The position numbers and the translations under genes were made by a program. 64,000 bases of DNA from Dioscorea cayenensis subsp. rotundata (Eukaryota > Streptophyta > Magnoliopsida > Dioscoreales > Dioscoreaceae). Shown here in pieces: positions 10,901 to 58,792 of the stretch. The stretch is taken from contig NC_052473.1 of the NCBI RefSeq assembly GCF_009730915.1, forward strand, positions 18,000,100-18,064,099. Direction: 5' to 3'. Positions within the stretch are counted from its first letter, which is position 1; every line of letters starts with the position of its first letter. Below the pieces are notes generated by a model. It saw only the letters and a program-made list of their open reading frames with translations, was not told the DNA's origin and did no database searches.

Positions 10901-13095
10901 GTCAATTATCGTTGTGTTGTTTTCTTGTTGGATTTTGGCTAGTCTGAAGTTTTCTTTTACATTTGAGTGATGTTTGACAATATTTGCCATGATGTATTGG
11001 CATGGAAATGGTTCAATGATGTGTCTTCCCTCCTTTCTGTTTGTGAAAGTGTTTGTTGTTGATTGTATATTGATGTTGTTTAATGGCCTTATTTATGGTG
11101 TGTATTTTTTTAATGTTATTTGTACAGGATTATACAGAAGGCACCTCTGATAAGGATAGAAAATTGTCTGTATTAGTAGAGATGGGGTTCCCTGCTGATG
11201 AAGCATTTTCAGCCATTAACAGATGTGGTATCTTATTTTTTTAATTGTTTTTGTTTGTGGTTGATTTTTAAATATTAAACAAAGTTAGAATCATTCATAG
11301 ATTATTCTTTTATGTAAATTGTATTAATGTTATTGGTTTCTTGACTGCCCCACATCAATATACTGTTAGCTGTGAGTGCCACCGGCTTAATGAATTGTCA
11401 TAGTACAAGCTGATTGTTTCTAGACATTGTTGGAAAAGAATATCTTCAGTGAGAGAATTTTATACTCTCTAAAACTCCAAGATGATTTTATATTAGATCA
11501 CATGGTCAATATCTTAGTGCTTTGATGGTATTTGCTGTGACCAATTATTTTTTGAATGACTTGAATGAATTCCTTAAATCACTTTTTGTCTTTTGGCAGG
11601 AGAATAGATGAGCATTATGCTCTCCTGCATTTCTTATTTGTTCTGTAGTCCGTATGTTGCCTTTTTTTCCCTAATCCAGTTTTACTCAGGGCCTAGTGCT
11701 TCTGTTTTGGAAATTGCGGACTCCATCCACGCTGCTCAATTGGCAGCTGATTCTGCTCCCACAGAGGATGACCTTTTTCCAAATTGGTCGGAGAACAAGG
11801 TGATGTTTCTATTGCAAAGGGTTTTTTTTTTTTTGGTGAAAGAACTAACTGAGCTGCTTACTGTATGTTCAATTTGGATATTCCCTTACTGCAGGCAGCA
11901 TCAAGCTATGCATGTGGTTCCTCTGTCAAAAATAAAAGGAAGTTATATGAAATGAAGAAGATGAAACAAAGAGGCAGCTTTCTTGATCGTAAGAAACCAT
12001 GTTTTGGACAAGGTAATTTGGATGAAGGTTTTCGGTCAGGGTTGACTATCCCAAAGCCGATGATAGGTTTCAGCCTTCCAAATCAGAAGATGAAACCTGC
12101 AAATCGGATCCTTCCTGAGGCAGCCATTGGCCCCCCTTACTTCTACTATGAAAATGTGGCCCTGGCACCAAAGGGAGTTTGGGAAACTATTTCACGTTTC
12201 CTTTATGACATTGAGCCCGAGTTTGTTGATTCGAAATTCTTCTGTGCTGCTAACAGAAAGAGGGGATACATCCACAACCTTCCAATTCAGAATAGATTTC
12301 CTCTTCAACCACTTTCCTCCACGAACAGTGCAGGAAGCATTGCCCATGACGAAAAAGTGGTGGCCTTCTTGGGATCCAAGGACTCAACTAAATTGCTTGC
12401 AGACTTGCATTGCGAGTGCGAAACTGACAGAGCGGATAAGAACAGCTCTTGCCAATTCCGACGACCCACCTCCTGAAAGAGTCCAAAGGTTTGTCATGAA
12501 CGAATGTAAGAAATGGAACTTGGTTTGGGTCGGGCTACACAAGGTGGCGCCATTGGAACCAGATGAGATGGAAATGTTATTGGGTTTTCCCAGGGATCAT
12601 ACGAGGGGAGGTGGAATAAGCAGGACAGAGAGATACCGGTCCTTGGGCAATTCATTCCAAGTTGATACTGTGGCTTACCATCTTTCTGTGTTGAAGGACA
12701 TGTTCCCGAATGGTATCAACCTATTATCTTTGTTCTCTGGAATAGGGGGAGCTGAAGTTGCTTTACATAGGCTAGGAATCCATCTGAGGAATGTAGTTTC
12801 AGTTGAGTTATCAGAAATAAACAGGAACATACTCCGTGGCTGGTGGGAGCAAACCAATCAGACGGGGACCTTAATTGATATCGCAGACGTTCAGCAGCTC
12901 AACGGCGACAGACTTGAGCAAATGATAAACATGTTTGGTGGGTTTGATCTGGTGATCGGAGGAAGTCCATGTAATAATCTCGCTGGCAGCAACCGGTACA
13001 GCCGTGATGGACTTGAGGGCAAAGAATCTGCTCTCTTTTATGATTATTTCCGCATCTTGGATCTCGTAAAGAATATTATGGGAAAGAGTTTCTGA
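7922..13095 (+). CDS. DRM2: DRM2-type de novo cytosine-5 DNA methyltransferase, with one frameshift
   Basis: DRM proteins methylate cytosine in all contexts in RNA-directed DNA methylation. Eight exons: 7922-7924, 8014-8139, 8248-8344, 8415-8461, 10416-10541, 11128-11227, 11690-11799, 11895-13095; all introns are GT-AG and phases agree. An acidic N-terminus precedes two UBA domains (about residues 46-90 and 138-180, with MGF motifs; Arabidopsis DRM2 has three). The catalytic domain has the circularly permuted order typical of DRM: GGGISRTERYRSLGNSFQ, then motif I LLSLFSGIGG, then motif IV GGSPCNNLAG with the catalytic Cys at about residue 562. The protein would be 602 residues, normal for the family. 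However the frame breaks near 12313-12315: CCACTTTCC reads correctly only if one T is removed. As written, translation stops at 12474-12476 after 396 residues, before motif I. Assembly error or loss of function are both possible. Confidence 0.9.
9094..9846. repeat. Two-copy 376-bp tandem duplication in DRM2 intron 4
   Basis: The segment starting TTATAAATTGATTCTTATC at 9095 recurs at 9471 and stays alignable to about 9846, with scattered substitutions and small indels. It contains no splice-site-like exon and accounts for much of the ~2-kb intron. The rest of this intron is T-rich sequence without features. Confidence 0.85.
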
Positions 13096-13632
13096 ATCTA
13101 TTTCTTAGAGTAAAAGGATTTGTTGTCCCTATAAAGCATGGTTTCAATTTTTTTCAAGATAAGCAATCCAGAAGGTTTGATTGAAGCTCTCGTTCTTGAG
13201 CCAGATAACATTGTTGTGTTCAAATGCTTTATTTCTCTGAAGCAACCTTTCTAACCAGTTCGGCGAATATCCGCTTTCTTGCTGATTTTAGATCGACATA
13301 AAACTTTAGCTTCACAGATGCAAATGTCTGTTATTTTCGAGCATCTGAACTACCTTAACTTTATTGTTTATTTGGCCACTGTTTGAACATTCATAACCAG
13401 CAATGGCTTCTCAAGCAGTGTTCTTTTTTCCTTGCAAGAATTTGGTCCGGAAAATTTGTTTGTACTTTATTCTTGAAATTGCTAATTCAAGTGAGAGTTC
13501 ACCAAGTTATTTCTATTATGCAGCATTCCTCTCCAAATTACTTCATGCTTGTCCGCCTGGTCATAATGTTTTGTTTTGTTTTGTTTTATGTTGTTTTTAA
13601 TTATTATTATTATTATGATGGTTACACTGCTT
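13096..13632. other. DRM2 3' flank
   Basis: About 540 bases downstream of the DRM2 stop; probable 3' UTR and terminator. It is T-rich with an (ATT)n tract at about 13601-13616. Two overlapping short plus-strand frames here (13383-13643) show no protein-like character. Confidence 0.5.
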
Positions 13633-13828
13633 TAAAAAAATAAAGGTGTGTAAATGCTCCACGGAGTAAGTGATGGAGGTGGGCTCCATTGACATATGGA
13701 TGTTTACAGATAATCACTATTCATACTCTAAAAAAATAAAGGTGTGCATTTGCTCCACGGAGTAAGTGATGGAGGCGGGGTTTGTTAACATATGGATGTT
13801 TACAGATAATCACTACTCATATTTTAAA
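13633..13828. repeat. Two-copy ~97-bp tandem repeat upstream of the PPR gene
   Basis: The unit, recognisable by CTCCACGGAGTAAGTGATGG followed by CATATGGATGTTTACAG, occurs at 13633-13730 and 13731-13828. It ends ~145 bases before the PPR start codon, so it probably lies in that gene's promoter. Confidence 0.85.
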
Positions 13829-13972
13829 AATTTCAGCTACTAATAAACTATTTGGTCATTAGTAATTTGAAAGAATGAGGGCCTTTGGTGAAAAAAAGAC
13901 ATCCAACGCAAAATCCTCCCTTTCAAACCCCTTAATTTGTTTCTTAACGGGTTCGGATCTCTTTCTTCTCAA

Positions 13973-15880
13973 ATGCTGATAGCTTCTCGCTGCTTACGCA
14001 TCAGAAAACCACAGGTACTCTCACCTCCTCTCTCTCACCCCTTCTCCTCCTCCTCCTTCCATCCTTTGATCCATACAAGCACCCTTAGAATCTCCACCGT
14101 CCAAAGAGACATCAGCGCTGATCCCAAGACAGCCTTCACCAACCAAACCATCACCCGGCTCGCCAACAATGGCAGAATCCCTGACGCCCGTCACCTGTTC
14201 GACCAAATGCCTCACAGAGATGTCATCACTTGGACCGCCCTCATCTCCGCCTACATCCGCTGCGGCATGCTCCGTGAGGCTCGTGCTCTCTTCGACCGCC
14301 CTGATGCCCAGAAGAACGTCGTCACTTGGACCGCTCTCCTCTCCGGCTACGTCCGCTCCAAGAGAATCCTTGAAGCTGAGGATATCTTTAAGCGAATGCC
14401 CGAGAAGAATGTTGTTTCTTGGAACACTATGATGTCTGGATATGCTGAGAATGGGCTTGTTGATAAGGCGTGTGAGGTGTTTGATAATATGCCTGAGAGA
14501 AATGTGGTGTCTTGGAACACTATAGTGACGGCATTGTGTCAGTGCGGGAGGGTGGAAGAAGCTTGGGCGATGTTCAGGAGGATGGTACATAGAGATGTTA
14601 TTTCATGGACAGCGATGGTTGCTGGATTTGCGCAGAATGGGAGGGTTGATGATGCACAAAAGCTGTTTGATGAAATGCCGGAGAGAAATGTTGTGTCTTG
14701 GAATGCAATGATTTCTGGTTACACACAGAATTCACAGCTTGACAAAGCTCTTGAGCTTTTTGATAAAATGCCGGAGAGGGATATTCCATCGTGGAACACA
14801 ATGATCACCGGTTTGATACAGAACGGTGAATTGGTAAAGGCGAGGCGTTTGTTTGATCGAATGAATGAGCGGAATGTGATCACATGGACGACGTTGATCA
14901 CAGGGTATGAGCAAGATGGGCAGAATGAGACGGCGGTTAATGTGTTCTTGGAAATGCAACGAGACTGTGTTCGGCCTAACCAAGGGACGTTTGTCAGTGT
15001 TTTAGCTGCCATAAGTAATTTGGCGGCGCTTGCCATCGGCCAACAAGTTCATCAGATCATAAACAAGACTAGTTTTCAGTTCAGTTCTTTCGTAGAATCA
15101 GCTCTGATCAGTATGTACTCGAAATGCGGTGAATTATTCACAGCGAGAGAGTTGTTTGATTTGTCAAGTCATAAGGATTTGGTGTCTTGGAACACAATGA
15201 TCGCCGCATATGCGCATCATGGACATGGTATGGACGCGGTAAAATTGTTCGATGAAATGAAGATGACTTCATTTAAACCAGATGATGTCACTTACGTCGC
15301 TTTGCTCTCAGCATGTAGCCATTCAGGTTTGGTTGATGAGGGGCTTAGAATTTTCAAATCTCTTGTAAGTGACGAGTCAATTAATGTACGAGAAGATCAC
15401 TATGCTTGTTTGGTAGACCTTTGCAGTAGAGCGGGAAGGCTTGAAGAAGCTACAAGGTTTATCAAAGGCCTTAAGAATAAACAATCATCGGCATGTGTAT
15501 GGGGAGCTCTTCTAGGTGGTTGTAATGTACATGGTAATGAAAACATCGGTGAATTAGCTGCGAAAAAATTGTTGGAGATAGAACCAAACAATGCCGGAAC
15601 ATATCTGTTGCTGTCAAATATTTATGCATCTGCGGGGAAATGGAAAGAAGCTGCCAATGTTAGGCTCAGAATGAAAGATAGAGGATTGAAAAAACAACCT
15701 GGTTGCAGTTGGATCGAAATTGGCAATCGTGTTCATGTGTTTACAGTGCGTGATAAATCGCATAATCGATCTGAGTTAATATATAGTTTGGTGCAAGATC
15801 TTCATCACAAGATGAGTGTTTCTGATGATTATGCATTGGATTTTGATGATTTAGTGGTTGTTAATCATCAAGTAGAATGA
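13973..15880 (+). CDS. Mitochondrial PLS-class PPR protein, E subgroup (At2g35030-like)
   Basis: An intronless gene of 635 residues. The reading frame is open from 13937, but the first ATG is at 13973, which I take as the start. The Arg/Ser-rich N-terminus (about 45 residues) looks like a mitochondrial presequence. It is followed by a long run of pentatricopeptide repeats with the P-L-S rhythm: many units contain NVVSWN or DVISWT followed by M..GY and A..LFD.MPERN. The C-terminus has the E and E+ regions (AGTYLLLSNIYASAGKW, then GLKKQPGCSWIEIG), and there is no DYW domain. Proteins of this class bind specific organelle transcripts and act in C-to-U editing or RNA processing with a deaminase partner. 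It matches Arabidopsis At2g35030 in domain order and sequence. The frame is fully intact, unlike several neighbours. Confidence 0.92.
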   Translation: MLIASRCLRIRKPQVLSPPLSHPFSSSSFHPLIHTSTLRISTVQRDISADPKTAFTNQTITRLANNGRIPDARHLFDQMPHRDVITWTALISAYIRCGMLREARALFDRPDAQKNVVTWTALLSGYVRSKRILEAEDIFKRMPEKNVVSWNTMMSGYAENGLVDKACEVFDNMPERNVVSWNTIVTALCQCGRVEEAWAMFRRMVHRDVISWTAMVAGFAQNGRVDDAQKLFDEMPERNVVSWNAMISGYTQNSQLDKALELFDKMPERDIPSWNTMITGLIQNGELVKARRLFDRMNERNVITWTTLITGYEQDGQNETAVNVFLEMQRDCVRPNQGTFVSVLAAISNLAALAIGQQVHQIINKTSFQFSSFVESALISMYSKCGELFTARELFDLSSHKDLVSWNTMIAAYAHHGHGMDAVKLFDEMKMTSFKPDDVTYVALLSACSHSGLVDEGLRIFKSLVSDESINVREDHYACLVDLCSRAGRLEEATRFIKGLKNKQSSACVWGALLGGCNVHGNENIGELAAKKLLEIEPNNAGTYLLLSNIYASAGKWKEAANVRLRMKDRGLKKQPGCSWIEIGNRVHVFTVRDKSHNRSELIYSLVQDLHHKMSVSDDYALDFDDLVVVNHQVE

Positions 15881-15944
15881 GAAAAAATTTCAGGAATAAT
15901 TAATGATACAGATTTAAATGCATCAAGGTTGTATAATGATCGGG

Positions 15945-16505
15945 TTGTTTATTTATTTATTTTTTGAATAATATGGACAAGTTACGCATTTCAACCCAGT
16001 TCTTTAATTTGGAAGAAAAGTGAAATACCAACTATACAATATACAATAATAGATGTGATTATATTTATATTAACTAAAGTGTTTTAAAAATATTTATTAT
16101 TATTATTTTTTCACTATGCATATCAGTTTGAAGAGAAAAAAAAATTTAAATTTTGTAGCAAATTTTATTTTTAATCAAAATTTTGCATGTAATCACGCCT
16201 ATAAATTTATCTAATCTATGATACGATTTATATCGAGATATGTACACTCACAATACATAAATAATTGCAGGTATACCCACATTATCAAAATCCATAATAT
16301 TTTTAAATAATGCCATTTTATGTGCCCACTTTTTCTTCAACTCATTATCAAAATATACATATAAATAAATAAATATGTTATATGTATATATAATAATATA
16401 TTTGAAGGGCAAAAATTTTGTTTCTTCCCGTGAATTGAATCATTATTTCTTATTTACCAATTACCACCTAGCCAACTTTACTACCATTTTCGGGAATAAA
16501 GAACA
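15945..16505. repeat. PPR 3' flank, ancestral copy of the 23.9-25.7 kb repeats
   Basis: This AT-rich segment shares an ordered series of words with 23880-24800 and 25590-25745: TTTAATTTGG, CATATAATCACGCC-like, ATACATAAATAATTG, CCATAAT.TTTTTAAATAAT, and later TATTTGAAG..AAA followed by CGTGAATTGAA and CGGGAATA. It is therefore one arm of a dispersed duplication, not a gene. Confidence 0.65.
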
Positions 16506-17200: not shown

Positions 17201-17237
17201 TTAGGTATTGATTGTCTCAAGAGAGGAATCAATACAA

Positions 17238-17428: not shown

Positions 17429-17429
17429 G

Positions 17430-22622: not shown

Positions 22623-22838
22623 TATCAGGTTCGAGTAATTAATGATATTATTTTAGAGTTAATTTGAGGAGGAGAACAATGAACAAAAATTTGAATAACA
22701 CAGAGATATTAATGTTGTAAAAGTTCAGATTTCCCACACGGATCTTATGGACCTCAATAAGTCAAGATAATGGCATGTGAGGCGTCACATTAACTCTGCA
22801 TCCCTTTAATCACAAGTGCTTGCCACCTTTTTTTTAAA

Positions 22839-23313
22839 GAGTAATGCTATATAGAGCGAAAAAACCACACAAAACCAGCCACACAACTGATGTGGTTGGT
22901 GATGTGGAATTTCTTTCAAAAAAATAAAAATAAAAAAGGAGAAAATAAAAACTTAATTGTCTCTCTCGTGTGTCCCTCTCCCACTCCTGGCCGCCACTTC
23001 ACTCCCAGTCGCCATTCTCGGCCGCCGCTTCTCTCTCCCGCTATCGCTTCCCTTCCCCGCTCCAGGCCGTCGCTTTCCTCACTCGTGTGGGTCTCTCTCT
23101 CTCTCTCTCTCTCACTCTCTCTCTCTCTCTCTCATGTGGCTCTGTGTTCCAGGTCGCTGCGACCGGCAGCCGCTCCCGATCACAGCTCCCAGCCTTCGCT
23201 TCCCTCCCTCCGCGGCGGCTTGAATGGGGGCCTGGAGTGGGTGAGGAAAGCGACGAATTGGAGAGGGAGGGAAGCGTTGGCCGGGAGCGGCGACCGAGAG
23301 CACTGAGCCACAC

Positions 23314-23359
<46 letters not shown>

Positions 23360-23611
23360 CATACGAGTGAGGAAAGCGGGGCCTGGAGCGGGAGAGGGAA
23401 GCGACAGCCGATAACAGCGACCGGGAGTGAAGCGGCAGCCAAGAGTGGAAGAGGGACACACGAGAGAGAGAGTGTGTGTGTGTGTGATAGAGAGAGACGA
23501 TTGGCTTTTTCACTTTCTCTTTTTTTTTTATTAAAAAAAAATTCCACATCACCAGCCACATCAGTCATGTGGCTGGTTTCGTGTGATTCATCGATCTATA
23601 TAGCATTACTC
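22839..23611. mobile_element. GC-rich palindromic Mutator-like MITE (773 bp) with 9-bp target duplications
   Basis: Ends GAGTAATGCTATATAGA and TCTATATAGCATTACTC are inverted copies. They are flanked by TTTTTTAAA (22830-22838) and TTCTTTAAA (23612-23620), a 9-bp direct duplication with one mismatch, which is the Mutator signature. The arms remain complementary deep into the element: CCACATCACCAGCCACAT-type sequence, a (CT)n tract at 23092-23132 against (GA)n at 23312-23356, and GC-rich stretches such as CTCCAGGCC against GGCCTGGAG. The body is far richer in GC than its surroundings. Six overlapping open frames on both strands follow from the low-stop GC-rich and (CT)n content and are not genes. 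The interior may derive from captured host sequence. Confidence 0.8.
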
Positions 23612-23842
23612 TTCTTTAAAATGAAGCATTATAACAATTTCATGTGGGAGACTTGGTTTTGCTTAAGCTAGTTACGTATATAGAGTTCAATTCCAATATT
23701 CCATTCTAAACTCAATAAGAATTACTATGGACCATTCAAGTTGATTGAAAGAATAGGGGCAGTAGCCTATAAGCTACTTCTGCTAAAGGGAACAAAGATG
23801 CATGATGTTTTCCAAGTATAATGAGGAAAAAAAAAAATTAGG

Positions 23843-25844: not shown

Positions 25845-26474
25845 TTATATTCCCATAATGCCCCCATGGCTCATCATCGGCGCCGGCGCCGTCACGGCGG
25901 CGCTATCCACGCCTTTACAGCTCAGCGACTGGATCAGCTTCCACGCCGCCCACCGTCCACCGTCACGCATCTCCGGCGCAGCTGCTCGCCGGCGTAACCT
26001 GCTCCTTATCTCACTCATCTCCATCACCGGCTCCGGCACGTTCACCGACCCAAAGAGAAACCAGTACCATCTCGGCCTCGGCTTCGGCGTCCTCCCCGCA
26101 GGAGCCGAGTCCGACGCCGCCCGCCTCAGCCGCCGATCGAAGCAGTCCAACGCCTCCCACCTCCGCCTCCCGATTCCCTCCACGTGGCTTCGGCTTCTCC
26201 ACAGCGGCGACGTCGGCGCCGGAGCCGGCGGGGTTGGGTTCCTCACGAGCATTCGGCCTTGGACGAAGATGTCATCGGCGGCGCACATCTCCGAAGCCGA
26301 AGCCGAAGCCGCGCCGTGGAAGGTGAAATCGAAGAGGTCTTGAGGTGGAGAAGATCGCATGCAATCGGAGCAATCTTGGCCGTTGATCAAACCCGTCAGG
26401 GAGATGCACGAATCCTCGCCGTCGGATCCCACTAGACAAAGAGCTTCTTCTTCTTCTTCTTTATATGATGCCAT
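25845..26474 (-). CDS. GC-rich single-exon plant protein of unknown function (MCAADD motif)
   Basis: A 209-residue protein from an intronless gene. It begins MASYKEEEEEALCLV. Near residues 46-75 it has DLFDFTFHG, then EMCAADDIFVQGRML, a motif of the type seen in plant proteins of the DUF1645/MAKR-like kind (F.F.G...MCAAD.(I/V)F..G). The rest is Pro- and Arg-rich with WRSRSHVEGIGRRRWEAL and a basic stretch RLRRRAAAPEM. No signal peptide, membrane segment or enzyme motif is visible. Third codon positions are strongly G/C, unlike most genes here but as in many monocot single-exon genes. The opposite strand is open for 161 codons in a shadow frame. I judge the minus strand to be the gene because of the motif, the acidic N-terminus and the upstream TATA-like sequence. 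Function unknown. Confidence 0.75.
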   Translation of the reverse strand: MASYKEEEEEALCLVGSDGEDSCISLTGLINGQDCSDCMRSSPPQDLFDFTFHGAASASASEMCAADDIFVQGRMLVRNPTPPAPAPTSPLWRSRSHVEGIGRRRWEALDCFDRRLRRAASDSAPAGRTPKPRPRWYWFLFGSVNVPEPVMEMSEIRSRLRRRAAAPEMRDGGRWAAWKLIQSLSCKGVDSAAVTAPAPMMSHGGIMGI

Positions 26475-26695
26475 GAATTCTCTTTTTTTTTTTGAGAAAA
26501 CGAGTCTCGAGAGTGTTTATATATATATATATAATATATAAGAATATTAAGGGGTCTATTTGGGAATAATAGTAGAGAGAGAGGGATTTACGGGTGTATT
26601 ATGGGAAGAAATGGAGAGAGAGAGAAGGATTTGCGGGTGTATTATGGGAATATATATATAGAGAGAGAGAGAGAGGAGAGAAAAATGCAAGAGAT
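26475..26695 (-). promoter_or_regulatory. Upstream region of the GC-rich gene, with a short tandem repeat
   Basis: A (TA)n tract at 26519-26538 lies ~45-65 bases upstream of the start codon and may act as the TATA region. Further upstream GGATTTACGGGTGTATTATGG (26583-26602) recurs as GGATTTGCGGGTGTATTATG (26629-26648), each preceded by (GA)n runs. Confidence 0.45.
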
Positions 26696-30486: not shown

Positions 30487-31659
30487 ATGAAGAACCCTAA
30501 TCACCCTCCCATGAATTCCATTGGCTTCACAAAGCCCTCTATAGGGACTATCATCTTGCTCTTATTACCCTTCATGCTTCTTGCCCTTATCTTCGTTGTC
30601 ATTTATCCAAATGAGTTCCAACTCCAATCTTTAACCGGCATTGCCCCTGTTATCATCACCCATGCCTCCAATTCTACCTCATTTTTCTCACCGGAAAAAC
30701 CCGCCTTTCGCCTTCTCATTGGCATTTTAACTCTTCCTGATCACTATGAAAGACGGCATCTTCTCCGGCTTGTGTACTCATTAGAGCCACCGGTGAATGC
30801 CGTTATTGATGTTAAGTTCGTCTTTTGTAACCTTACTAAAGATGATCAAAGAGTTTTGGTTGCTTTAGAGATCATTCGTTTTGACGACATTATTATTCTT
30901 GATTGCCCGGAGAACATGAACGATGGCAAGACTTACACTTACTTCTCAAGCTTGCCAATGCTTTTCAATGGCAGCAATGGTGATGACAAGCCTTATGATT
31001 ATGTTATGAAGGCAGATGATGATATTTACTTCAGACTTCCAAGGTAAATATTAACTAAACTTTATTTACTCCATATATATGGTTACATTAGTTATATATT
31101 AACTCTTGGTCTTGAACATGAAACATATATATATATATATATATATATGTTTCATGTTTCAAGACCAAGAGTTAATTTTTCTTGTTTGAAGAACATGATT
31201 CAATTAATGGTGCACTAAATTCATGAGACATTCATTTCACTTGTTTGACATATATATATATATATATAATTAATGAATTAAGTTATCTTTATATATATAT
31301 GATTTCATGTTGGGCACCACTAGGTTCTATGTGCTGATCATTATATTATATATAAGTTTTTTTTTTACTTGCATGCCTAGTGAAAATTTGGAATAATAGT
31401 TATATATGCTCGAAAAATAATATCTACTCATTTTCTCTGATATATAAATAAATATGATTTTTCTCTACGGAATATTAACAATTACCTTTTCTTGTAGATG
31501 TATGGCAGCCATTTTCTCTGATATTTATATATATCTTCTAAGTTTCTAACCCTAACAAGTTTCCTATTCTAGACATATTATATATATATCTATATATATA
31601 TTCAAACTCTATCCCCTAACAAGTAACAAGTTCTCTACTTTCTAACTAGGTGTCTATAT

Positions 31660-31814: not shown

Positions 31815-32558
31815 CAGAAGCTGACAAAGTCGACCCAATACAAACATGTGAAATAAATCAACCCTCTCTCGCAAACCCATGCCCTAACCCCTAACAAGTT
31901 GCTATTTTTTTTTATCACCATCACATGCATGCAAATAATTAAGAACTTCTCAACGTTGAATTCTTAACATATATATATTAGTGTATGCATGCAAAAAATA
32001 ACATCTTTTGAACGTTGAATGCTTGATAGACTAGTGCATGTAAATAATAACAACTTCTCAACGTTGAATGCTTAACAGGCTAGTGCATGCATGCATATAA
32101 GCAATAACACCTTAAATTTGAACGTTGAATGTTTAACAGACTTGTTGAGTCACTGAAAGAAGATGCCAAGGGAGGACATGTACTATGGTTTTGTGATTCC
32201 CTGTGACAGCATGGATCCCTTCCATGACTACATGTCAGGGATGGGCTACATTCTCTCATGGGACTTAGTTCAATGGATTTCTTCATCAAATATACCTCGA
32301 AACAATTCTGTCGGTCCCGAAGACATGATGACCGGCAAATGGATGACTCTCGGCCAAAAGGCGAAGAACCGATTCAATACAAAGCCGGCAATGTATGACT
32401 TCCCTATTCCGGTTCCTATTGATACTTGCTCTCATGAGTTTGTTCCTGATACTATAGCTGTTCATCGTCTTAAGGATAACCCTAAGTGGGCTAGGACTCT
32501 TAAGTACTTCAATGTCACTGATGCTTTGAAGCCTTCTAAGTTGTATCATATCCCTTGA
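30487..32558 (+). CDS. GT31 (Galactosyl_T) glycosyltransferase-like protein, with one frameshift
   Basis: Two exons: 30487-31043 and 32140-32558, with a 1.1-kb intron. The product (324 residues if corrected) is a type II Golgi protein by appearance: short cytosolic tail, a membrane anchor at about residues 17-40 (IGTIILLLLPFMLLALIFVV), then a luminal domain. FRLLIGILTLPDHYERRHLLR resembles the family's opening strand. VMKADDDIYFRL is the DxD metal/nucleotide-sugar motif, split from the rest by the intron. PREDMYYGFVIPC and YMSGMGYILSWDLV in exon 2, and the late VGPEDMMTGKW (E-D-V/M-G type motif), are also characteristic. The acceptor and substrate are not identifiable. Across the splice the frame fails: after LVESLKE one extra base near 32157-32162 (GAAGATG) is needed to explain the loss of frame, otherwise a stop follows within 20 codons. 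No alternative AG rescues it. Confidence 0.85.
31099..31175. repeat. Near-perfect hairpin in the GT31 intron
   Basis: TTAACTCTTGGTCTTGAACA...(TA)n...TGTTTCAAGACCAAGAGTTAA: arms of ~35 bases pair with a single one-base bulge around an (AT)n loop. It would form a stable stem in the nuclear transcript. It could be a small-RNA precursor or a MITE remnant. Confidence 0.85.
31600..31815. repeat. (AT)n tracts in the GT31 intron
   Basis: Long uninterrupted (TA)n tracts at about 31667-31697 and 31780-31811, in an intron otherwise made of AT-rich sequence with CCCTAAC words. Confidence 0.8.
31945..32140 (+). repeat. Four degenerate tandem units running into the GT31 3' splice site
   Basis: The core AACGTTGAAT(G/T)(C/T)TTAACAG occurs at 31952, 32011, 32060 and 32121, spaced 59, 49 and 61 bases, with GTGCATG(CATG) between units. 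The third and fourth units both end in TTAACAG. Only the fourth is followed by sensible coding sequence, so the real acceptor (32138-32139) has at least one decoy upstream. Confidence 0.8.
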
Positions 32559-41102: not shown

Positions 41103-42625
41103 ATGAAGGAGTTCTGGACTTCAATAGCATCACTACTGGGCGCCTTAGCTTTCTTCCAAAGCATTCTCCAAGCCGTGTTCCCACCCCAACTCCGTTTCAC
41201 CATTGCTAAGCTCTCTCACCGTCTCTTCCACTGCTTCTCCTCCTACTGCTACTTCGAGATAACTGAAACCGATGGCGTGAACACCAACGAGCTCTACAAC
41301 GCCGTTCAGCTTTACCTTAGCCGCTCTGCCTCCGTGTCAGCTAGCCGGTTGAGCCTTAGCCGAGCTCTCAACTCGTCTTCCTTCACTTACTCCCTCTCTA
41401 ACAACGACCAACTTGTTGACACCTTCAATGGCGCCACCGCCACCTGGGAACACGTCGTCACTCAGCGGCAAAATCCATCCTTTTCCTGGCGTGCCATCCC
41501 TGATGAGAAGCGTGGCTTCACCCTCTCCATCAAGAAGAAGGACAAACCTATTATTCTTCAATGCTATCTCAATCACATCATGCTCACCGCCGCCCAGCTC
41601 CGTCATCTCAACCAAGATCGTCTTCTTTTCACTAACTCCCGTGGCGGTGCTCTTGACTCCCGTGGCCACCCTTGGGAGTCTGTTCCTTTCAAACATCCTA
41701 GCACTTTTGATACTCTGGCTCTTGATCCTGCTCGCAAGCTTGAGATCCTTCTTGATCTTAGAGATTTCGCTGATGGCCAGGCTTTTTATAAGAAGACTGG
41801 AAGAGCTTGGAAACGTGGGTATCTTCTTTATGGACCTCCAGGTACTGGGAAATCTAGCTTTGATTGCTGCCATGGCTAACTTTCTTGGCTATGATATTTA
41901 TGATCTTGAGCTTACTGAGGTTCATTCTAATTCTGAGCTCCGGAAACTCCTCATGAAGACTACTCCTAAATCCATCATTGTCATTGAAGATATTGACTGC
42001 TCTATCAATCTCTCTAACCGGAGTTCTGCTGGGAAGGTGACCGTCCCCTGTTCTGGGCCTGATTCTGTTGTACATGGTGTTGATGATGTTAATTCTTCCA
42101 AGACTATTACTTTATCTGGGCTGCTGAATTTTACTGATGGGTTGTGGTCGTGTTGTGGGAGTGAGAGGATTTTTGTGTTCACGACCAATCATATTGAGAA
42201 GCTTGATCCTGCTCTGTTGAGGTCTGGCAGGATGGATATGCATATCTTCATGAGTTACTGTTCTTTTCCCGCACTTAAGATTTTGATGAAGAATTACTTG
42301 GATTGGGATTTTGATGGTGAAGAGAATGGAGATGAGGATGAGTTGTTGAAGGAGTTGGAAGAGGTGGTTGATGGCGCTGAGATGACTCCTGCTGATATTA
42401 GTGAAGTTCTTATTAAGAACAGGCGATTTGAGAAGCGTCAGGCTGCAAAAGAGCTCTTGCAAGTGCTGAGGAAACAGAGTGTTGGCTAAAAGGAAGAAGA
42501 GTAATGGGAATGAAGTGATGATGGAGGAGGAGCAGGAGAAGAGAGCATTGGAGAGTCCAAAGGAGGATGAAGAGACATTGGTGAACCACAACGAGAAGAA
42601 GAACAATGCCGGTAAGGATAAGTGA
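41103..42625 (+). CDS. AAA-ATPase of the plant BCS1/ASD type, with two frameshifts
   Basis: An intronless gene; the corrected product is 506 residues, normal for the family. The N-terminus has a membrane anchor (LGALAFFQSILQAVFPPQ, about residues 11-28) as in the mitochondrial outer-membrane AAA proteins (AATP1/OM66/ASD). This is followed by the AAA-associated region and a single AAA module: Walker A GPPGTGKS (residues 244-251), Walker B SIIVIEDIDCS, and the sensor/arginine-finger segment VFTTNHIEKLDPALLRSGRMD. The start is the first ATG after the CT leader. At 41859-41861 AGCTTTGATTGC has one T too many: GKSS is followed in the next frame by LIAAMANFLG. A second +1 step between about 42470 and 42482 would replace the early stop at 42487 with a charged tail rich in KRKK and EEE, ending at 42623-42625. 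The second event is less certain because C-termini vary in this family. Confidence 0.85.
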
Positions 42626-47895: not shown

Positions 47896-48569
47896 TTAAA
47901 TTAATTATTTTTATTCATTAATAATAAATGACTTCTTAAATATCAGTTACAATCATAATTTATTTTTAAACTAAAATTTATAAAATGCATTCTCTCCCAC
48001 ATACATATATCATATACATTATACATACATATGTATATATAGACATACTTGCGCGTTACTTGTACGGATGTAATATACATAAGTGTATTACATGTTAATG
48101 ATTTCTTAAAATATATTGAATGTCAAAATACGGATGCTTTATAATAATAATAATAATATAATGATAAAGGAAAAGTTATCTTATTGTTGAATTTTGAGAT
48201 TATTAAGTTTTGAATCATGCACCATACATATACTACACTACTATATATATATATAGTTTGAATTTTAAAAAAAAAAAATCCTCATTGATTAGAAATGTTT
48301 AGAATCAAAGAAACCTAAACAAACCGAATTACGTTTGATCACATTATTTTTTTATTTTTGAAAAGAAGCCCACATTATGCTTTAAAAAAAAACAGATTAA
48401 GATAAATCCCGAATCTTCAAAATTTAAATAAAAAAACAAATTCCAATATCTCCAACAAAAAAACACAAGTCACTCATCAATCTATGATTCTACTATATGC
48501 ACACCCACACACTGAATATTTTCTCAAACCCTAATTGTCTTTCTTTCATTCTTGTGCAAGTTTGTAGTG

Positions 48570-49850
48570 ATGGTGAAGAAGCTTTTATCCAAGAAACCAA
48601 AAAAAATAAAAAGTGTCATCAATGAAGACGTAGTAACAGAGATCCTTTTGAGGCTGCCAACAAAATCCATCTTCAAGTTCAAGAGCACCTCCAAAACATG
48701 GCTCAAAATCATAAATGATCCATGGTTTGCTAATACTTATAAATCCTCTAATGGTCTTCCAGTTCTTGCAGGTTTATTCCATGTAAATTACAACTATGAA
48801 TTGAAATTTAATCCAGTTAACCACCGTCTCAAGTCACCATCATTGAACCATCTCCCTCTTGATCTGAAAGACCTCTCAGTAACTGACATGCTTTCTTCCA
48901 ATGGATTCTTTCTCTTGTGCACATCAGATGATGAGAAAATAGTGTACAACCCAGTCACCAGAAGAAGATTGATGATACCAAAAATGGAAAGAACCAATGA
49001 TTGGTACCATGCATTTGGCTTGATACATGAAAATGATAATCATATCAAAGTAGTATTTGCTTACAAGCTTGCATCAGATGACATACAAACGGCATTAGAA
49101 ATTCATAGGTTTACACGAGACAATAAATTGGTGGGCAGAGATGAATTGCCACAGCATTGGCCGGAATTGATTGTCAAATGGCAATGCAAGACAAAGGACA
49201 TTGAGTTCAAGGTATATTGTAGCAAGAAGAAAGAGTGGAATTCTAAGATTTTGGTGAGCACGTTTCCAAGACATGTATGTTTTGAGCCGGAACAGCAGGC
49301 TGGTGTTTCGATCGGAGGCGATTTGTATTGGATGACACTGGATGGATCGGTGCTGGATTATAACAGTGAGCGTGAGGCGGCGGAGTTGATCAGTGCACCC
49401 GTGGCAAGCGAAGGATTAAAGGCGAAGTCTCTGCATTGCAGTGCCAATGGGATTCTTGTGTATTGCGCGTGCGACAGGAAAACAGAAGAGGTGGTGATAT
49501 GGGAGCTCATCGATCGGAAAATATGGGCTGCAAAGAAGAGGGTGAAGTTGCATGGTGTGGAACATCTCCATATGGAAATGATTTTGTATGTTTGTCATGA
49601 AATGCAGGCCTTGTTCTTTCAGACAAGGGCGAAGGAGGTGTACAGGTTTGGTGTCAGTGAAGAGAAGTTGGAGCTGATTTGTCGTCTTAGTTTGAATGTT
49701 GATCAGGTGACTCCTTATCTGATGTCTCCATGGCCTGCTGCTTTGATTGGGGATGAAGCATGGCCTTCTTCATCATCATCATCATCTGAGAACAAAAATA
49801 GTGGATCAACGTCTAGGTTGTTAATTCATTACAATAAGATTCATGAGTAG
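48570..49850 (+). CDS. F-box protein, copy A (intact)
   Basis: An intronless gene of 426 residues; the first ATG of the open frame is 48570. A basic N-terminus (MVKKLLSKKPKKIK) leads into the F-box at about residues 17-58 (INEDVVTEILLRLPTKSIFK, then FKSTSKTWLKIINDPWFA). This motif would bind the SKP1 adaptor of an SCF ubiquitin ligase. The remainder resembles the F-box-associated (FBA) type: SNGFFLLCT, KIVYNPVTRRRLMIPKM, AFGLIHE and GGDLYWMTLDGSVLDYN are typical beta-propeller-like strands that would choose the substrate. A Ser run near the C-terminus is coded by a TCA microsatellite. The stop lies 203 bases from the stop of the convergent CBS-PPR gene. Target protein unknown. Confidence 0.88.
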   Translation: MVKKLLSKKPKKIKSVINEDVVTEILLRLPTKSIFKFKSTSKTWLKIINDPWFANTYKSSNGLPVLAGLFHVNYNYELKFNPVNHRLKSPSLNHLPLDLKDLSVTDMLSSNGFFLLCTSDDEKIVYNPVTRRRLMIPKMERTNDWYHAFGLIHENDNHIKVVFAYKLASDDIQTALEIHRFTRDNKLVGRDELPQHWPELIVKWQCKTKDIEFKVYCSKKKEWNSKILVSTFPRHVCFEPEQQAGVSIGGDLYWMTLDGSVLDYNSEREAAELISAPVASEGLKAKSLHCSANGILVYCACDRKTEEVVIWELIDRKIWAAKKRVKLHGVEHLHMEMILYVCHEMQALFFQTRAKEVYRFGVSEEKLELICRLSLNVDQVTPYLMSPWPAALIGDEAWPSSSSSSSENKNSGSTSRLLIHYNKIHE

Positions 49851-50053
49851 TAATGTAACCGTAGAGCAACAAGAATAACAGTTGGGTTTTGTTTTCTAGA
49901 CCTTTGTTAGACCATTTTGTTACTGCAATCTGAAACTCAAGATATATCATCTACTCTCAATGTGCATTGCTTGTGTTCTGTTACATAAATAGCATGATAG
50001 ATCATCAGCCTATAGAGGCCGATGAGATCAAATGGAATGTGTGAAGGTTTTTG

Positions 50054-53000
50054 TTACTTTGTGATTATTTGACCTTGTCTGATTTGTTGCATCAGCAGAT
50101 GATTTGTGGAAATTGTCTTACAATGTTTAGTGAGCTGGCAGAGCTTGTCACGGGTGAAAGTTCCAACTGGCCTGGAGCTTGAACTGTAGGTGGTTTCATA
50201 GACGACGTTGCTGTTTTTCACAATGATGAGCATTTTGTACTTCTTCTCTAAGAGTAGATCGATCGTCCGGCCAATGGATGTCGATGTGGTTACACAAGGC
50301 GGCGGTCCTCTCATCATGGTTGAAAGAGGCGCATCCAACTGCAGAGCCATTCAAAACATCCACTGTTACTATCTACAAAGTAAGACATAGAGATACCATC
50401 TAAATTATCTATCTCATCACAGAAAGCACCCTGAAGTTAAAACCATGGCCGCCAAAACTAAATGCATAAATAAATGACAACATCAGAGGGAGTTAAAACA
50501 TCTATAATTTGGTTTAAAAGTCCTTAAAATTGGTCATTTGTTGTCATGGTGATCCTAGGAAAACCTTTTTATGTTTCCGATATATTTGACCAACACTACA
50601 AATCACAAAGATAGATAATGCAAATATGAATTTCGCACTAGGAGTATAATTAATCATTGGTATTGCCTAGAAGAAACTAGCAAATGCACTAGACATGGAA
50701 ACAAGTAGAAAGACAATAGAGGGAAGAGATGAAGTAGAGAGAATTGTTACTATGTGGAGATATTGATTTACCATTTTACAATCATCACGGTGGAGAATTC
50801 CAACACAGCTGCCCCAGTCATCTATAACAGGAAGCACAGAATCTCTGAAGAAATGCATCACAACCTTTTTCAATGGCAGGCTAGAAAGCAATGGATTAGA
50901 TTCCTCAAAAGGAGTCATGTACTTTTCAATTGGATCATCTAATGTAACCTGAAATAAAGGAATTGATCACCAGTCAACTTCTGAAAAATAGGAAAGAGAG
51001 AAGTAACAAATAGATGGGAAGTTATGAGATTAAAACCTGAGGAAGGATGTATGGAGTAAACAATGAACTGGTGAATCCAGATAAAATCTCCACTTTAAGA
51101 GCAGTCTGCAACACAATGATGAATGATATCATGACCATAATAGTTAAACAAAAAAAAATATATATATTACTCTCAACAAATGCACTCATTTGTCCATAGG
51201 CCTCCTAAAAGCAAGGTCTTGCATCACTCATGCACTTAGTTATTGGCCTTAAACAAGGTTCCAAATGGCTGGAGAGAGCATGGATTACCACCTTATTGTC
51301 AATCTAATTTACTATGAATTAATCAGGAATACACTGCCGCTCAGCTAGTTTTTTTAGTTTGCCACCTTAGTTCCAATTTAACATCCCCTCCACCAATTTC
51401 ATTAATTAAGATGATAGCATACATAATAGATATGGAAAAGGAGCATTAAACAAGCATTGCCAAGAAAGCTAATTTGAGGCATAAACTAAGGGGAAGTAAC
51501 AAGTCAAAGGAAACATGATCAAACCACCATCTATTTGACTGTTGAATCAATGGATTTCCCAAATTTTCTAGCTTGATAAACCACGAGAGAACGTGGAATT
51601 ACCAAGGCCACAATCTTTCTAGACAATAACAAAAGATTCATACGAATTCATCATTATTCTTCATCTGCACATAGCCAATTTCTCAAAGATAATTTATATA
51701 CCATTCCTCCTCTGCTATTCCAAGAAAGGCCATCTCTTTTTCGGATGATATCTAGAAGAATTTTTTTCGAAACATCAACCTGTAAAGAAAAAGAACAGCA
51801 ATCACCAAACAGTCATAACAAAAAAAGAAAAAAGAGTCACGCAGAACTCAAAACTAATTTTGTTATAGTAGAGGGAAGACATGGTTTTTAAATCAGAGTG
51901 CAAAGCAAAGCTCACTATAGGCAATGAAAATATTACAGTAAAAACAGCTCAAGTTGAATTTCATTAGGAATATGCTATTTGACAGTATCAAGTATCAACA
52001 TTAGCTACAAGTGGAAACAATAAGAAACAACAGTGCAATAATTAAATGAAGAAACTTGATGGATATTTAAGTTTCTCAGAGTCAGGCACTAATATGTATC
52101 TTGCAACGAAATCTAAGTTGCACTTAAGTTGTTTGAAAAATTTACAAAAGAAAGAATCCTTATAGGGTGCCTGGCATTGAAGAAACTTCTTCTTACTCAA
52201 CAACAAGGGCTTTTTTTCAGTAACAATTGGTTTTTATACTCAAAAGTATCCAATTTTTACCCTGGTTCAAACTAGCTTACTCATGATCATTGAAAAACTA
52301 AAAGTGGAATTTTAAAAACCATAATGATGGGAAGAATAAATTTTCATCCCACATCTGAGCAATTTTCTGCAATACATCTTAACATATTCTTGTAGATAGT
52401 AGCATTGAAGCATACAGCTGACTTCAGAGAATGATGGTGATATCACATAGAAGTATTCAAATGCAGCTAGGTATTTATACACATTATTTCAACATCACAT
52501 TTGGGGTGTATGAACAAGAGCAATACCTGATTATCATTTATTGCAGCCTCCATCAGGAGCTCATCAGCTTCTTGTTGTGCTGACAGAGAAATCGATCCGA
52601 CAGTATCTGACCACATTTTCACATGAAGCTTCTTGACCATATCAAAATCCCCATTAAGAGCAAAGGTCCGCATCATAGAAAGATAAAGATGAGGCTTTGG
52701 TCGCAGATTATTACTCTCATTTGCCAGCTTTATTATCTCACCAAAAACACATAAGGCACCTTTCAATCTCGAAAAAAAATGGACGGATTAGAAACACTGA
52801 CCACAATTTCGCATGTTATAAATATCTACTTGAATGTGTATACAATTTCATCTTAATAAAGTGCCTACATGTTGTGTGTGTTAAGTGCGTACTTTGTCAA
52901 TGTGAAGGCACATATTCAGAATCCAAAGCATTATAAATCATGCTAAAATCTACCGTAGAAACTTCTTCATCAATGCATACAGATGCTTTATAAAAAAAAC

Positions 53001-55287
53001 TAAGATATTGATTAACCAATAGAAACAGTCAAAGAGAGTATAGAGAGGAAGTACCCTGAATTGAACCACAAGCTAGCATTGCATCAACAATTGCAGTATA
53101 CGCTGTCCGATCAATATACAGATCAGGCAATGATTTCATTTCGACAACAATTTCCTGCACTGAACAAAGATCTTTTTTGCTCCCGAGACCCTACAATTGT
53201 GTTTAGAAATGTAAAATTGAAATGAACCAGATAGTAACAATCCAGATAGTAACAATCCAGAGTCTAAGTTGAAAAAATTAAAGAATGAAAAAGGATTAAG
53301 CAACAAGAAACCTATGAGTGAAACCATAAATTAATGTATGGCAAGTACGCCAATGATCATCCAAGAACAGAAATATGAAAAAGCAATTGCATACAGTCTG
53401 TTTTCTGATTGAAAATTAAAATTAAGTAGGATGGTAAGATTTAAGATAAGATCTTTGAGCACTATAAAATTAATTGACGTTAGACACTGCTAAAATTATA
53501 ACCATATGTTTTTTATAGTAATCACTAAAACATTAAATAAGATTTTCAAGGATGGAAGCTTCAATATAGTCATGCTTATACTTGCAGGGCAAAGATAGGC
53601 CATGTTAATGAGTGATCAAATCAATCTTCCACATAAGTACCTTCAGTAAAGTAGTGTAAGTAACAACATCAGGAAAGAATTCACTGCTGTTAGCTTTTTG
53701 AGCTTCCACCTGCATGAAGATATATTTATGATTCATGATCCATTTGCTTTTCTGTGCCAAAGTAGGATAAATCACATAAGTTAAAACTGGCCTTTCAAAT
53801 ACTTGTTCAAGACCTTCATTTCTGTGATCAACTGAAATGCAGCATCTAGATCTCCAGATTTCACACATGCAAAAACCAATGTATTATAAGTCACTTTATC
53901 AGGCTTCAACCCTTGGCGTAAGATCTCATCTCTTATAGTTAATGCACCTTGAGGGAAATCAGTCTTCAAGTACCCCTGAGCAAATTATAATGATGTATTA
54001 GTATCCATCTGAAACATTTTAAATCAAACACAGAAGTCCTGTAAACTATCTCATCATTGCAAGTTATACAGTAAATAGACTTATTGGCCTCTGGGTCTGA
54101 GGAAGCAAAATAACCTTCATCAATAGGTTGTATAGCAAGACCTGGTCTTCCTCTTTGTTCAGCACAACTCGGTAACGTGCTACAAGCCCATTGGCACGGC
54201 GCATATCGCCTGCCATTAACATATGTCAGAAAAGAAAGATCCAAGAAAAATGTGAAAGGTTTCAAACTTGAGGATAAATCAAAACTTTTTTTTTAGGGAA
54301 AACAAACAAAAGATTTCTTGGAATAACAGGCAGACAAAGAGGAAGCTCCTCTTTAAGGCAAACTCAGAGATATGCTCACCCTGTCAAAGACTAAATTAAT
54401 CACTTCTAGTCTAGTGTATTTCAAACTAGAAGCAACTAGAAACTTGAGCGAGCTTAAAGGCAAGCTTACTTGACTTGAATTTGCATACCTGTAGCTTTAA
54501 GAAGTTTAGAAAATGTGATAGGTTAATTTCATTCTGCTTATGTTATCTTTAATTTTAAATGTGCAATGAAATTGATCCTTGACCGAAGTTTCCTAGGACA
54601 GATACAGACAAGGAAGTGCATTCTGGCATTGAATTCTCAATGCAAATATTAGATGTTTTAAGCAACAAAGTTTTAATTCTTCAGAATGCGATAGACTAAT
54701 ACATATGCAAGGGAAAATCATAAAACAGTTTGTAGGTGACATTTCTATATATATTTTCTGTAAGTGAAGCATAGGTTTTGTAACCTAGTCCAAAATATCA
54801 AAATATCAAGGAACAGTTTTATCCTTATAATAAAAAAATCACTCCTTTCATTCCACCACAACAAAAATAAAAAGCGATTCAGTATAGCACAATAAGAAAA
54901 GTAGATTATCATCAAAATAAGAGAAGAAAGGAGATGCATTGGGTATAGCAATAAATCAATAAGGTCACCATTGCATCTCAAACTAACCTGCCTCAAGTAA
55001 GGCATTTAACAGACCATATATAAGTCGGGCCGATAATTTTGGGCTTCCCACAGCTGTACCATTTTCCACAGACTCGAGAATTTGGAATGCTTCATCAATT
55101 CTTCGAGCCTCACCTAAACCCTTTCAACATCAATAGAAGAATGTTTCATCAGAAAGCTGCATTGTTCAAGATGGACAAATTAAGGATTCGCAGATAACAC
55201 TGTCAACAAATGAGGATTGGTAGAGATTCTTGCTTTCCAAGTGATGGTAACTACCGATAAAGCAACCTATCCATATTAAATTAAAAC

Positions 55288-55323
<36 letters not shown>

Positions 55324-56002
55324 TTGAGAAGAACCCATCAATTCCCTAATTTTTTTTCCAAATAATTTCACACTCAGACCTACATACCATGAACTTAAAT
55401 GTAAAACACAAAAGACAAATGATTGCATCCTCCTTCAATTATTCATCAAAAACCAGAGAAAAAAGAAGAATTTAAGTTATTGAGATACCTTCAAAAGGAT
55501 TCCATAGGATATATCATCTACACCACAACTCTCAGGCTTAGCCATTTCCTCAAACACTTGAATAGAAGACTCAATGTCTCGGCAATGAACACATGCTTCC
55601 ATTACAGCGTTCATCACAACAGTACTCAACTTCCCATACCTCTTCTTCGCTTTCTCTATTTCCCTCAAAATCTAGAGAAAAATCAAAATCACTGAGGAAT
55701 CGAAAATGTATAAATCAGGGGAGAACAAAGAGATTTAACACCTGCCGCAGCTGTCTCCTCCGAGTGAGCTCGATGACCCGAGATGTGAGCCTCCTAAAAT
55801 TGAGATCCTGCGGCGATGGAGAAAGCGACGGCGGCGACTTCGAGGGGGGTTTGAGGCTGCGGAGAGGGGAATGCGAGGCATGAGGACCACGGGAGCGAGT
55901 GGCGCTGGTTCTTCCAGGCCGAACGGAGAAGGAATTCACAAGGTTTTCTAGGGTTTGGAGAAGAGAATGGGATTGGGGCCGGGGATGAAACCCTAGCAGC
56001 AT
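50054..56002 (-). CDS. CBSPPR1: CBS-domain PPR protein (At5g10690/CBSPPR1-like), copy A
   Basis: Twelve exons on the minus strand: 56002-55742, 55671-55489, 55120-54988, 54209-54115, 53975-53814, 53709-53641, 53190-53055, 52759-52527, 51779-51702, 51105-51037, 50948-50772, 50338-50054. All have GT-AG borders and consistent phase, giving 626 residues without a stop. The Arg/Ser-rich N-terminus may be an organelle transit peptide. Exons 2-8 code pentatricopeptide-type helices (VVMNAVMEACVHCRDIESSI, KPDKVTYNTLVFACVKSGDL, VVTYTTLLKGLGSKKDLCSV). Exons 9-12 code a CBS-domain pair (LPVIDDWGSCVGILHRDDC and CVTTSTSIGRTIDLLLEKKY), a module that usually senses adenosyl nucleotides. This fusion matches Arabidopsis At5g10690. 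Its function is not established. Exon 12 uses an acceptor within an 11-base segment that is missing from copy B. Confidence 0.92.
55288..55319. repeat. (CA)n microsatellite in CBS-PPR intron 2
   Basis: About 15 uninterrupted AC units, absent at the same place in unit B. Confidence 0.95.
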
Positions 56003-57534
56003 CGTCGCTTGTCACTACTACTCAGCATCGATCCCGCGAGAGAAGAAGAACGACCACGCGCGAATGGATCAAATGCCTCGAGATTCGCGTTACTTCCTAA
56101 TCTCTAGAAAGAGATCAAACGGTGGGATCTTATTGTTTGTTTTGTTTTTGTCTGTACTTATCCACTTAACAGTGGATGTGGTGTTACTTGTTTTTTTTTC
56201 CAATAAATTATGGTTTATATATATATATATTTTTATAATAATAATAAATAAATAAATCTTGATAAATTCGTGGTTTTATTTCTTTTATAAAAAAATAAAT
56301 AAATTAAGTATTTAAGAATTATGTTTATTAATAAAATTATGGTTTATTCATTTTTTTAAAAAAAATTAAAAATTATAGATATAATTAAAATAAATTCACC
56401 TCAATATTTATTAAAAATAGAATTAGCATTGATCTTAGGCTTTAGAATTATTTTCGAAATTTAAAGTTATAAATATGTCTTTCAGTTCTTATGTTGGTCA
56501 GCTGGCTGAGCTACTGTTGCAATTAGTTAGATTTTTTTAGTGCAAACAATTTTTTTGGGAGATTGAAAACATAACTATGGATAATTTTAGGTGTGTGTAT
56601 TAATCATTTATATTTTAAACCAAAATTTATAAAATAAATTATTTCTATCGTAAGTTATCTGTCACTTGTGGGGACGTAGTATTACAAGTGCATTACATGT
56701 TAATGATTTCTTAGAATATATTGAATGTATGCTTTCGGATGATAATATATATATTAACAAAATGAATGGGTATTATGGAATAAATGTCTCAATGAGAGGA
56801 GAGAGATGATCTCATGGATTCCATTCTGAGATTGTTACAATGGAATCAAGATGTGATCATCCTAACCCACTGGATTACCTCAATTTAATAATTTTTAAAA
56901 TAAATGGCACTCAATCTTTTTTAAAGTAATTACCAATCTATTTCTATATTATATAATTAAAAAATTATAAAATTTATAAACCCAAAAATAAAATTATTTT
57001 TCATAAAAAGAATTTGTTAGTCGACGAGTGAAACCCGTTGACATAATAAAATAATAATAAAATTATTACTTTAAATAATAGATAAATTATGACTTTTTTT
57101 AAGAAAAATCAATAAATATAAAACAAAAAACAAAGCCCAAACAAAAGTAAAAATCCTAAATACAAAAGAAACAAATTATTTAATCGTTTTGATTTTGTAG
57201 ATCATGTGCTATAAAATCCAGGTTATGTATTCTTTGCTCTTGCCTTATGAGATAATTTAAGTTTTGCATCATGCACTATACTTATCCACTTCTATAAATG
57301 TATAAAGTCTAATTTTCTTTTTCATCAAGGATTACAGAATTAAAACTATATATATATATATATATATAGATATATATATGTAACACATGGATTAGAAATT
57401 TGATTAGATGAAGATAAATCCCAAATTGAAATTAAAAAAAAAAAAAATTCCAATATTTCCCATAAAAACAGGCACAATAGTACCAGAAAAACCAAGCTCC
57501 CTCCCATCCAAGCTATAGCTTGCTCAAAGTTAAG
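56003..57534. other. Junction region between units A and B
   Basis: From the 5' side of CBS-PPR copy A (CG-containing leader, 56003-56130) through AT-rich spacer to the 5' side of F-box copy B. 56270-57480 corresponds to 47125-48500 of unit A. (AT)n tracts at 56218-56230 and 57347-57377. No other gene seen. Confidence 0.6.
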
Positions 57535-58792
57535 ATGATGAAGAAAAAGAAGCTTTTATCCAAGAAATCAACAAGTGTTCTCAAGGTTATTACAACGATA
57601 ATGAAGAAGAAGAAGCAGCTTCATACAAGCAATAAACCTGGAAAAAAGAAAAGTGTCATTAATGAAGACATAGTAACAGAAATCCTTCTGAAGCTGCCAG
57701 CAAAATCAATCTTCAAGTTCAAGTGCGTCTCCAAAACATGGCTCAAAGTCATAACTGATCCCTGGTTTGCCAAATTTTTATAAATCCTCCAATGGTCCTC
57801 CAGTTCTCGCAGGTTTTTTCCATGCAGATGACAACTATGACTTGACCTTTAATCCTGTTAATCACCGTCTCAAGTCACCATCATTGAACCATGTCCATAT
57901 CAATCTGCAAAGCATATCTACCATGCCTTATTCCAATGGATTCTTGATTTTGTGTACAGATGGAAAGAAAATTGTCTACAACCCGGTCACCAGAAGAAGA
58001 TTAGTGATACCAAAAATGAGAGAAAAACAAGATGAGTGCCATGCATTTGGCCTGATACATGAAAAAGACAATCATATCAAAGCAGTATTTGCTTACAAGC
58101 TTGAAACAGGCGACATACAAATGGCATTACATATTTATGGGCTTATATACCACAATAAAATAGTGCCCATTGATGAGTTGCAGAAGCGCTGCCCAGGTTT
58201 TCGTGTCAAATGGGGATGTAGGACAAAGCAGATTGAATTCAGGGTATATTGTAGCAAGAAGAATGAGTGGAATTGTAATAAATTGGTGAGTAAGTTCCCA
58301 AGATATGTGTGTTTCGAACCGGAACAGAAGGCTGGTATCTCGATCGGAGGCAATTTGTATTGGATGACACTGGACGGAGCGGTGCTCAGCTATAACAGTG
58401 AGAGTGAAGCAGCGGAGTTGATCAGTGAACCGGTGGTGGGCGCAGGATTACAGGCAAAGTCTATACATTGCAGTGCCAATGGAACTCTTGTGTATTGCGC
58501 AATGGAGAGATTGACAGAAGAGGTGGTGATATGGGAGCTTAGTGACCGGAAAAGATGGGTTGCTAAGGAGAGGGTGAAGTTGCATGGTCCGGAGAAACTT
58601 CCGACCAGTAAAGATTTTGTATGTTTGTCGTGAAATGCAGGCAGTGTTCGTGCAGACACGCAAAGCGGTGTACAGGTTTGGTGTAAGTGAGAAGAAGTTG
58701 GAGCTGATTTGTGATCTTACATTGAATTGTGATCAGGTGACTCCTTATCTGATGTCTCCATGGCCTGCAGCTTTAAATGGAGATGAAGCATG

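Follow-up and report, generated by a model that had tools for sequence, protein, structure and literature searches.

Four genes change reading frame at six places in the window, that is, the whole 64,000-nucleotide stretch of Dioscorea cayenensis subsp. rotundata analysed here (G000:C3:18000100-18064099, from an assembly of 584 Mb in 2249 contigs), and the question raised is whether the plant itself carries these breaks. The genes encode a DRM2-like DNA methyltransferase, a GT31 (Galactosyl_T-like) protein, a BCS1-like plant AAA-ATPase and an F-box protein (copy B of a tandem pair). Six surplus single bases are present in them. Most or all of these bases are probably consensus errors of the assembly (probability about 0.7, judged from sequence comparisons), and on this favoured reading the six frame changes are most likely an assembly error and not a real feature of the genome.

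Each frame change was examined by comparing its length with that of a homolog from the same genome which stays in frame, and all six sites were covered. Comparators were labelled by contig (C8, C11, C16 and so on) and consisted of the C16 paralog for DRM2 (with tobacco DRM, PDB 4onj, in addition), the C8 paralog for the AAA gene, the C11 paralog for GT31, and copy A for F-box copy B. The names GT31, IAA33 and CBS-PPR were taken from the first-pass annotation of this DNA; Pfam returned Galactosyl_T, AUX_IAA and PPR repeats.

Six surplus bases in four genes

The catalytic part of DRM2 was matched by the plant DRM structures 4onj and 7l4c in two pieces. Piece 11853-12473 followed tobacco DRM to about residue 97-99, piece 12094-13092 picked up at 98-99, and the two abutted with zero residues lost; at the TTT run the C16 paralog had one base fewer. 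Ratios of nonsynonymous to synonymous divergence (Ka/Ks) against this paralog were 0.03 and 0.05 on the two sides of the break, with Ks near or past saturation. The differences fell mostly at third codon positions (5, 6 and 45 at positions one to three on one side; 31, 20 and 121 on the other), a pattern indicating that DRM2 is under purifying selection on both sides. The bit score to 4onj was 467.9 for the post-break piece and 455.8 for the intact C16 paralog. A seventh DRM2 shift, near 8470, was ruled out, that position being the end of an exon.

At the first AAA site, position 13 of PF00004 ended at nucleotide 41858 and position 14 began at 41860, leaving exactly one base between them, and the C8 paralog was one base shorter. 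The second site lies in a variable tail and was initially weak; there the C8 paralog ran in a single frame into a matching tail ('...EKRALESPKDD'), whereas the window reached 'EKRALESPKED' in the next frame only, with one base more. Ka/Ks against C8 was 0.19, 0.11 and 0.24 for the three segments (Ks again near or past saturation), with differences mostly at third positions in the first two, which points to purifying selection acting on the AAA gene before and after each break. Pfam bit scores for the window gene and the paralog were 85.4 and 75.5 (PF14363), 41.6 and 46.6 (PF00004), and 38.0 and 42.6 (PF25568).

Both GT31 pieces fell below the curated PF01762 cut-off, each being scored singly and not as part of a whole gene. 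The 22 bases at 32141-32162 correspond to seven codons in one frame in the C11 paralog. Alternative splicing was ruled out by eye, the downstream frame being closed by a TGA at 32154 and an in-phase acceptor being absent. The stretches of C8 and C16 retrieved around the AAA and DRM2 paralogs contained no GT31 paralog; the C11 copy was found later. A search of the assembly with the exon-2 piece gave two loci, the window and C11, both broken. The first C11 break was a clean one-base gain (64 bases between anchors vs 63), whereas the second shifted the frame by +1 but was five bases shorter (34 vs 39), thus not a clean gain. Since both loci are broken, real loss is a poor explanation for GT31.

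F-box copy A formed one frame of 444 residues and its tandem copy B three, each change being +1, with equal residue spacing between the copies at both sites.

The observation of six single-base frameshifts, all insertions, was therefore confirmed, each site being one base longer than its in-frame homolog. The pieces of the four genes contained zero in-frame stops. That six shifts of six in one direction are unlikely for random decay was likewise supported (P 0.031, two-sided, at even odds). Their spread over four genes is uninformative, because 39% of simulations with estimated gene lengths placed six random hits in exactly four genes. The association with T or A runs, claimed for four sites, held clearly for DRM2 and AAA site 1 (TTT) and probably for F-box site 1 (AAATTTTT), while the other three sites could not be placed to the base. 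Runs of at least three T make up 5% of these exon bases, against two sites clearly and one probably in such runs, a post hoc figure in which the extra base itself lengthens the run.

Table 1. Broken genes, their frame changes and the in-frame F-box comparator in the window.
Feature	Coordinates	Strand	Evidence
DRM2-like DNA methyltransferase, last large exon, split over two frames	11895..13092	+	PDB 4onj and 7l4c match both pieces; C16 paralog one open frame
DRM2 frame change, TTT run, +1 base vs paralog	12313..12315	+	C16 paralog comparison
GT31 exon 1	30487..31043	+	PF01762 positions 25-95, 15.6 bits, under cut-off 23; homologous to C11 paralog
GT31 exon 2, split near its start	32140..32558	+	PF01762 positions 142-185, 18.6 bits, under cut-off 23; C11 paralog
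GT31 frame change, +1 base vs C11 paralog, exact base not placeable	32156..32162	+	C11 comparison
BCS1-like plant AAA-ATPase, three frame pieces	41103..42624	+	PF14363, PF00004, PF25568; C8 paralog one frame
AAA frame change directly after Walker A, TTT run	41859..41861	+	PF00004 and C8 paralog
AAA second frame change, where the C-terminal tail starts; base not pinpointed	42470..42489	+	C8 paralog
F-box copy A, comparator, one frame	48516..49847	+	Single frame, PF00646
F-box copy B, three frame pieces	57538..58898	+	Copy A comparison
F-box B first frame change, AAATTTTT region	57769..57778	+	Copy A comparison
F-box B second frame change; base not pinpointed	58578..58613	+	Copy A comparison

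Frame changes elsewhere in the assembly

Besides the window and C8, 19 of 20 further AAA places from the genome search were fetched; an extra C1114 stretch (L014) gave no AAA match. Outside the window, seven clean extra-base shifts (three in L031, two in L033 by eye, one in L023 and one in the C11 GT31 gene) were counted vs one missing base, in the first gene of L030. With the window included there were 13 extra vs 1 missing (P 0.0018 at even odds, sites in the same gene perhaps not being independent). Extra-base shifts were found on C11, C16, C6, C1006 and C1114 loci. AAA genes or exons lying in one frame included those of L005, L015, L016, L019, L022 and L029, as well as the second L030 gene and the compared exons of L024-L028.

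Left out of the count were +1 and +2 rows near residues 327-336 in L024, L025, L026, L027, L029 and L030 (introns or divergent sequence), a +1 in L017, weakly flanked rows in L017 (q516), L021 (q26, q42), L032 (q510) and L033 (q130, -1; q155, +1), the second C11 GT31 change, and, close to the start, rows that L018 has in common with L020 (two -1, one +1).

L031 was identical to L030 at 328/328 aligned residues of exon 1 and 78/78 of exon 2, with three +1 shifts, at TTTT, TTTTT and AAAA runs, within about 54 bases. These shifts lie no more than about 110 bases ahead of a run of N, which is either a gap in the scaffold or a withheld stretch, so that a poor consensus there would be unsurprising. 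In L033 a net +2 around Walker A was read, by eye, as two single extra bases. The L030 and L031 stretches themselves (G000:C16, 22.38 and 21.90 Mb) carry nearly the same AAA sequence at a distance of half a megabase, and one of them ends at the run of N; they may represent either a recent duplication or one haplotype assembled twice.

A patch of L018 (positions 4742-6515, G000:C1114) was kept outside the direction count. It held another 14 shifts of +1, three of +2 and one of -1, besides three stops, the last +1 (q529) being weakly flanked. Of the gaps in its alignment to L020, 21 left L018 the longer and 4 left it the shorter. The short extra bases are dense there, several of them changing CAG to CGAG or CTG to CTCG; as a conjecture, those in CAG/CTG context may reflect a base-calling effect at methylated sites.

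Assembly error or real insertions

For DRM2, GT31 and the AAA gene, assembly error appears the better reading, mainly in view of the single direction of the shifts, the little decay around them and the finding that both GT31 loci are broken. Single bases, some adjoining short A or T runs, would have been wrongly retained at places missed by error correction. The plant's own genes would be intact, and accurate reads would presumably lack the extra bases. Such errors would be patchy, with the platform, collapsed haplotypes and polishing as candidate steps. Gene-fragmenting indel errors of this kind are described for long-read assemblies in the available part of PMC12007338, and resemble the present sites in being single-base shifts in conserved genes, many at short homopolymers, with many insertions coming after A or T. 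The main text of PMC7749330, in the portion available, made no mention of nanopore, contigs or polishing, and the partial texts returned by a literature search held no statement on frameshift errors in this assembly.

Several results weigh against assembly error. The window has insertions only, whereas deletions exceeded insertions in the nanopore draft of PMC12007338 (900 insertions and 1708 deletions for the first listed, in the part available). Constraint was less clear in F-box copy B (Ka/Ks 0.32, 0.50 and 0.46 against copy A), and the noncoding flanks of the F-box copies, 90% identical over 1937 aligned bases, showed eight gaps of one base, which is not an obvious excess. In the 2.3 kb adjoining the L018 patch, L018 was longer than L020 at 3 gaps and shorter at 10, and across the whole L030/L031 alignment one-base gaps were balanced (8 vs 7) and not polarisable. 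Real pseudogenes occur in the tandem clusters that hold the AAA loci: the first L030 gene carries a -1 shift and a stop, and L018 its three stops.

Lastly, no frame-split rows were seen by eye among the best 67 of 1170 candidate PPR loci (the window gene included). Open frames among these matches were of 515-1058 codons in 67/67, with a stop inside the match in four, and several rows of one PPR gene shared the same open frame (by eye, among the matches listed). Compared with this PPR open frame of about 145 kb, breaks would be enriched in the window at P 2e-7 if the PPR set holds zero breaks and P 8e-4 if it holds ten, where the window coding sequence (12.1 kb) is an estimate and a high-scoring PPR set favours intact genes and bounds the rate loosely. 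A uniform rate like that of the window does not fit these unbroken PPR loci, which suggests that breaks are patchy across the assembly.

The first-pass annotation had proposed homopolymer-type consensus errors. The direction of the shifts, the absence of stops, the constraint in DRM2 and AAA and the lean towards extra bases in paralogs agree with consensus errors; the homopolymer label is only partly apt, given three unplaceable sites and the excess of deletions in the nanopore study.

Real recent germline insertions, forming null alleles or young pseudogenes tolerated through heterozygosity or paralogs, are the strongest rival, though an unlikely one. In-frame homologs are available for DRM2 (C16), AAA (C8) and the F-box gene (copy A), and the unbroken PPR loci among the matches listed fit real insertions. 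The broken genes are like unitary or duplicate pseudogenes in their interrupted frames and the presence of paralogs. They differ in that neither further disabling changes (no stops) nor, for DRM2 and AAA, relaxed constraint (low Ka/Ks) was found. Real insertions are also at odds with the single direction of all six changes, the conserved DRM2 residues kept after the break, the two broken GT31 loci, and the three shifts crowded beside the N run in L031, where the protein is otherwise unchanged over the aligned part. F-box B belongs to a duplicated unit in which the PPR copy has no counterpart of the stretch at about 51.8-53.3 kb, and because this neighbour is truncated copy B could really have decayed. 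For it a real pseudogene may be a fair alternative.

Collapse of two haplotypes, in which alleles distinguished by closely spaced variants were fused into a consensus matching neither of them, is a rather improbable route, and its odds are contained in the figure given for assembly error. The available part of PMC8445201 describes this mechanism as a source of frameshifts and indel errors. Apparent shifts in a diploid consensus are common to that case and the window, and an unplaced contig resembling an allele of a chromosomal sequence was seen (L015/L019, 97.7%). Collapse by itself does not predict insertions only, so that the direction bias stays unexplained, and no second haplotype of the window was found in the DRM2 and AAA DNA searches.

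It is distinctly improbable that all six insertions exist in the plant as linked null alleles of a single 46-kb haplotype, amid a wider insertion-biased load in otherwise conserved genes (GT31, AAA) and kept by heterozygosity. If assembly error is the wrong reading, null alleles lie clustered in this plant, and a DNA methyltransferase gene is among those affected. Programmed +1 frameshifting, with the genes translated across the shifts, would suit the common +1 direction but is scarcely credible, the homologs being in one frame across the sites, the shift sites not conserved and the six sites without a common motif (by eye).

If assembly error is the right reading, annotation would cut short or break up the DRM2, GT31 and AAA genes, with false calls of pseudogenes or gene loss as a possible result; as had been predicted, automatic annotation would probably truncate all four genes. 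The patchy, insertion-leaning pattern would then be usable as a flag of assembly quality. Missing conserved families number 595 in D. rotundata vs 53 in D. alata according to the part of PMC9010478 available, a contrast that would favour assembly error only if the present assembly is of D. rotundata.

The duplicated unit and neighbouring features

Even at silent sites the F-box coding copies (Ks 0.27-0.38) diverge more than their noncoding flanks (49850-51825 vs 58899-60919; 90% identity), a contrast that suggests gene conversion or a mosaic duplication. The second PPR copy of the unit is a truncated duplicate, its 3' end (60910-60919) being without a counterpart of about 1.5 kb (51825-53301).

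One open frame each was found for the PPR gene at 13892-15877, F-box copy A, the AUX/IAA piece and the DUF761 gene, so that the reported absence of shifts from F-box A and IAA33 stood. The gene at 25848-26516 on the minus strand lay in one frame both in the window and in C16. The homologous segment there (L003, G000:C16:17912000-17920000) holds the counterparts of DRM2 and of this gene close together, and the PPR gene which lies between the two in the window had no match within it. A long imperfect inverted repeat around GA/TC microsatellites, resembling a foldback element, was seen at 22837-23613.

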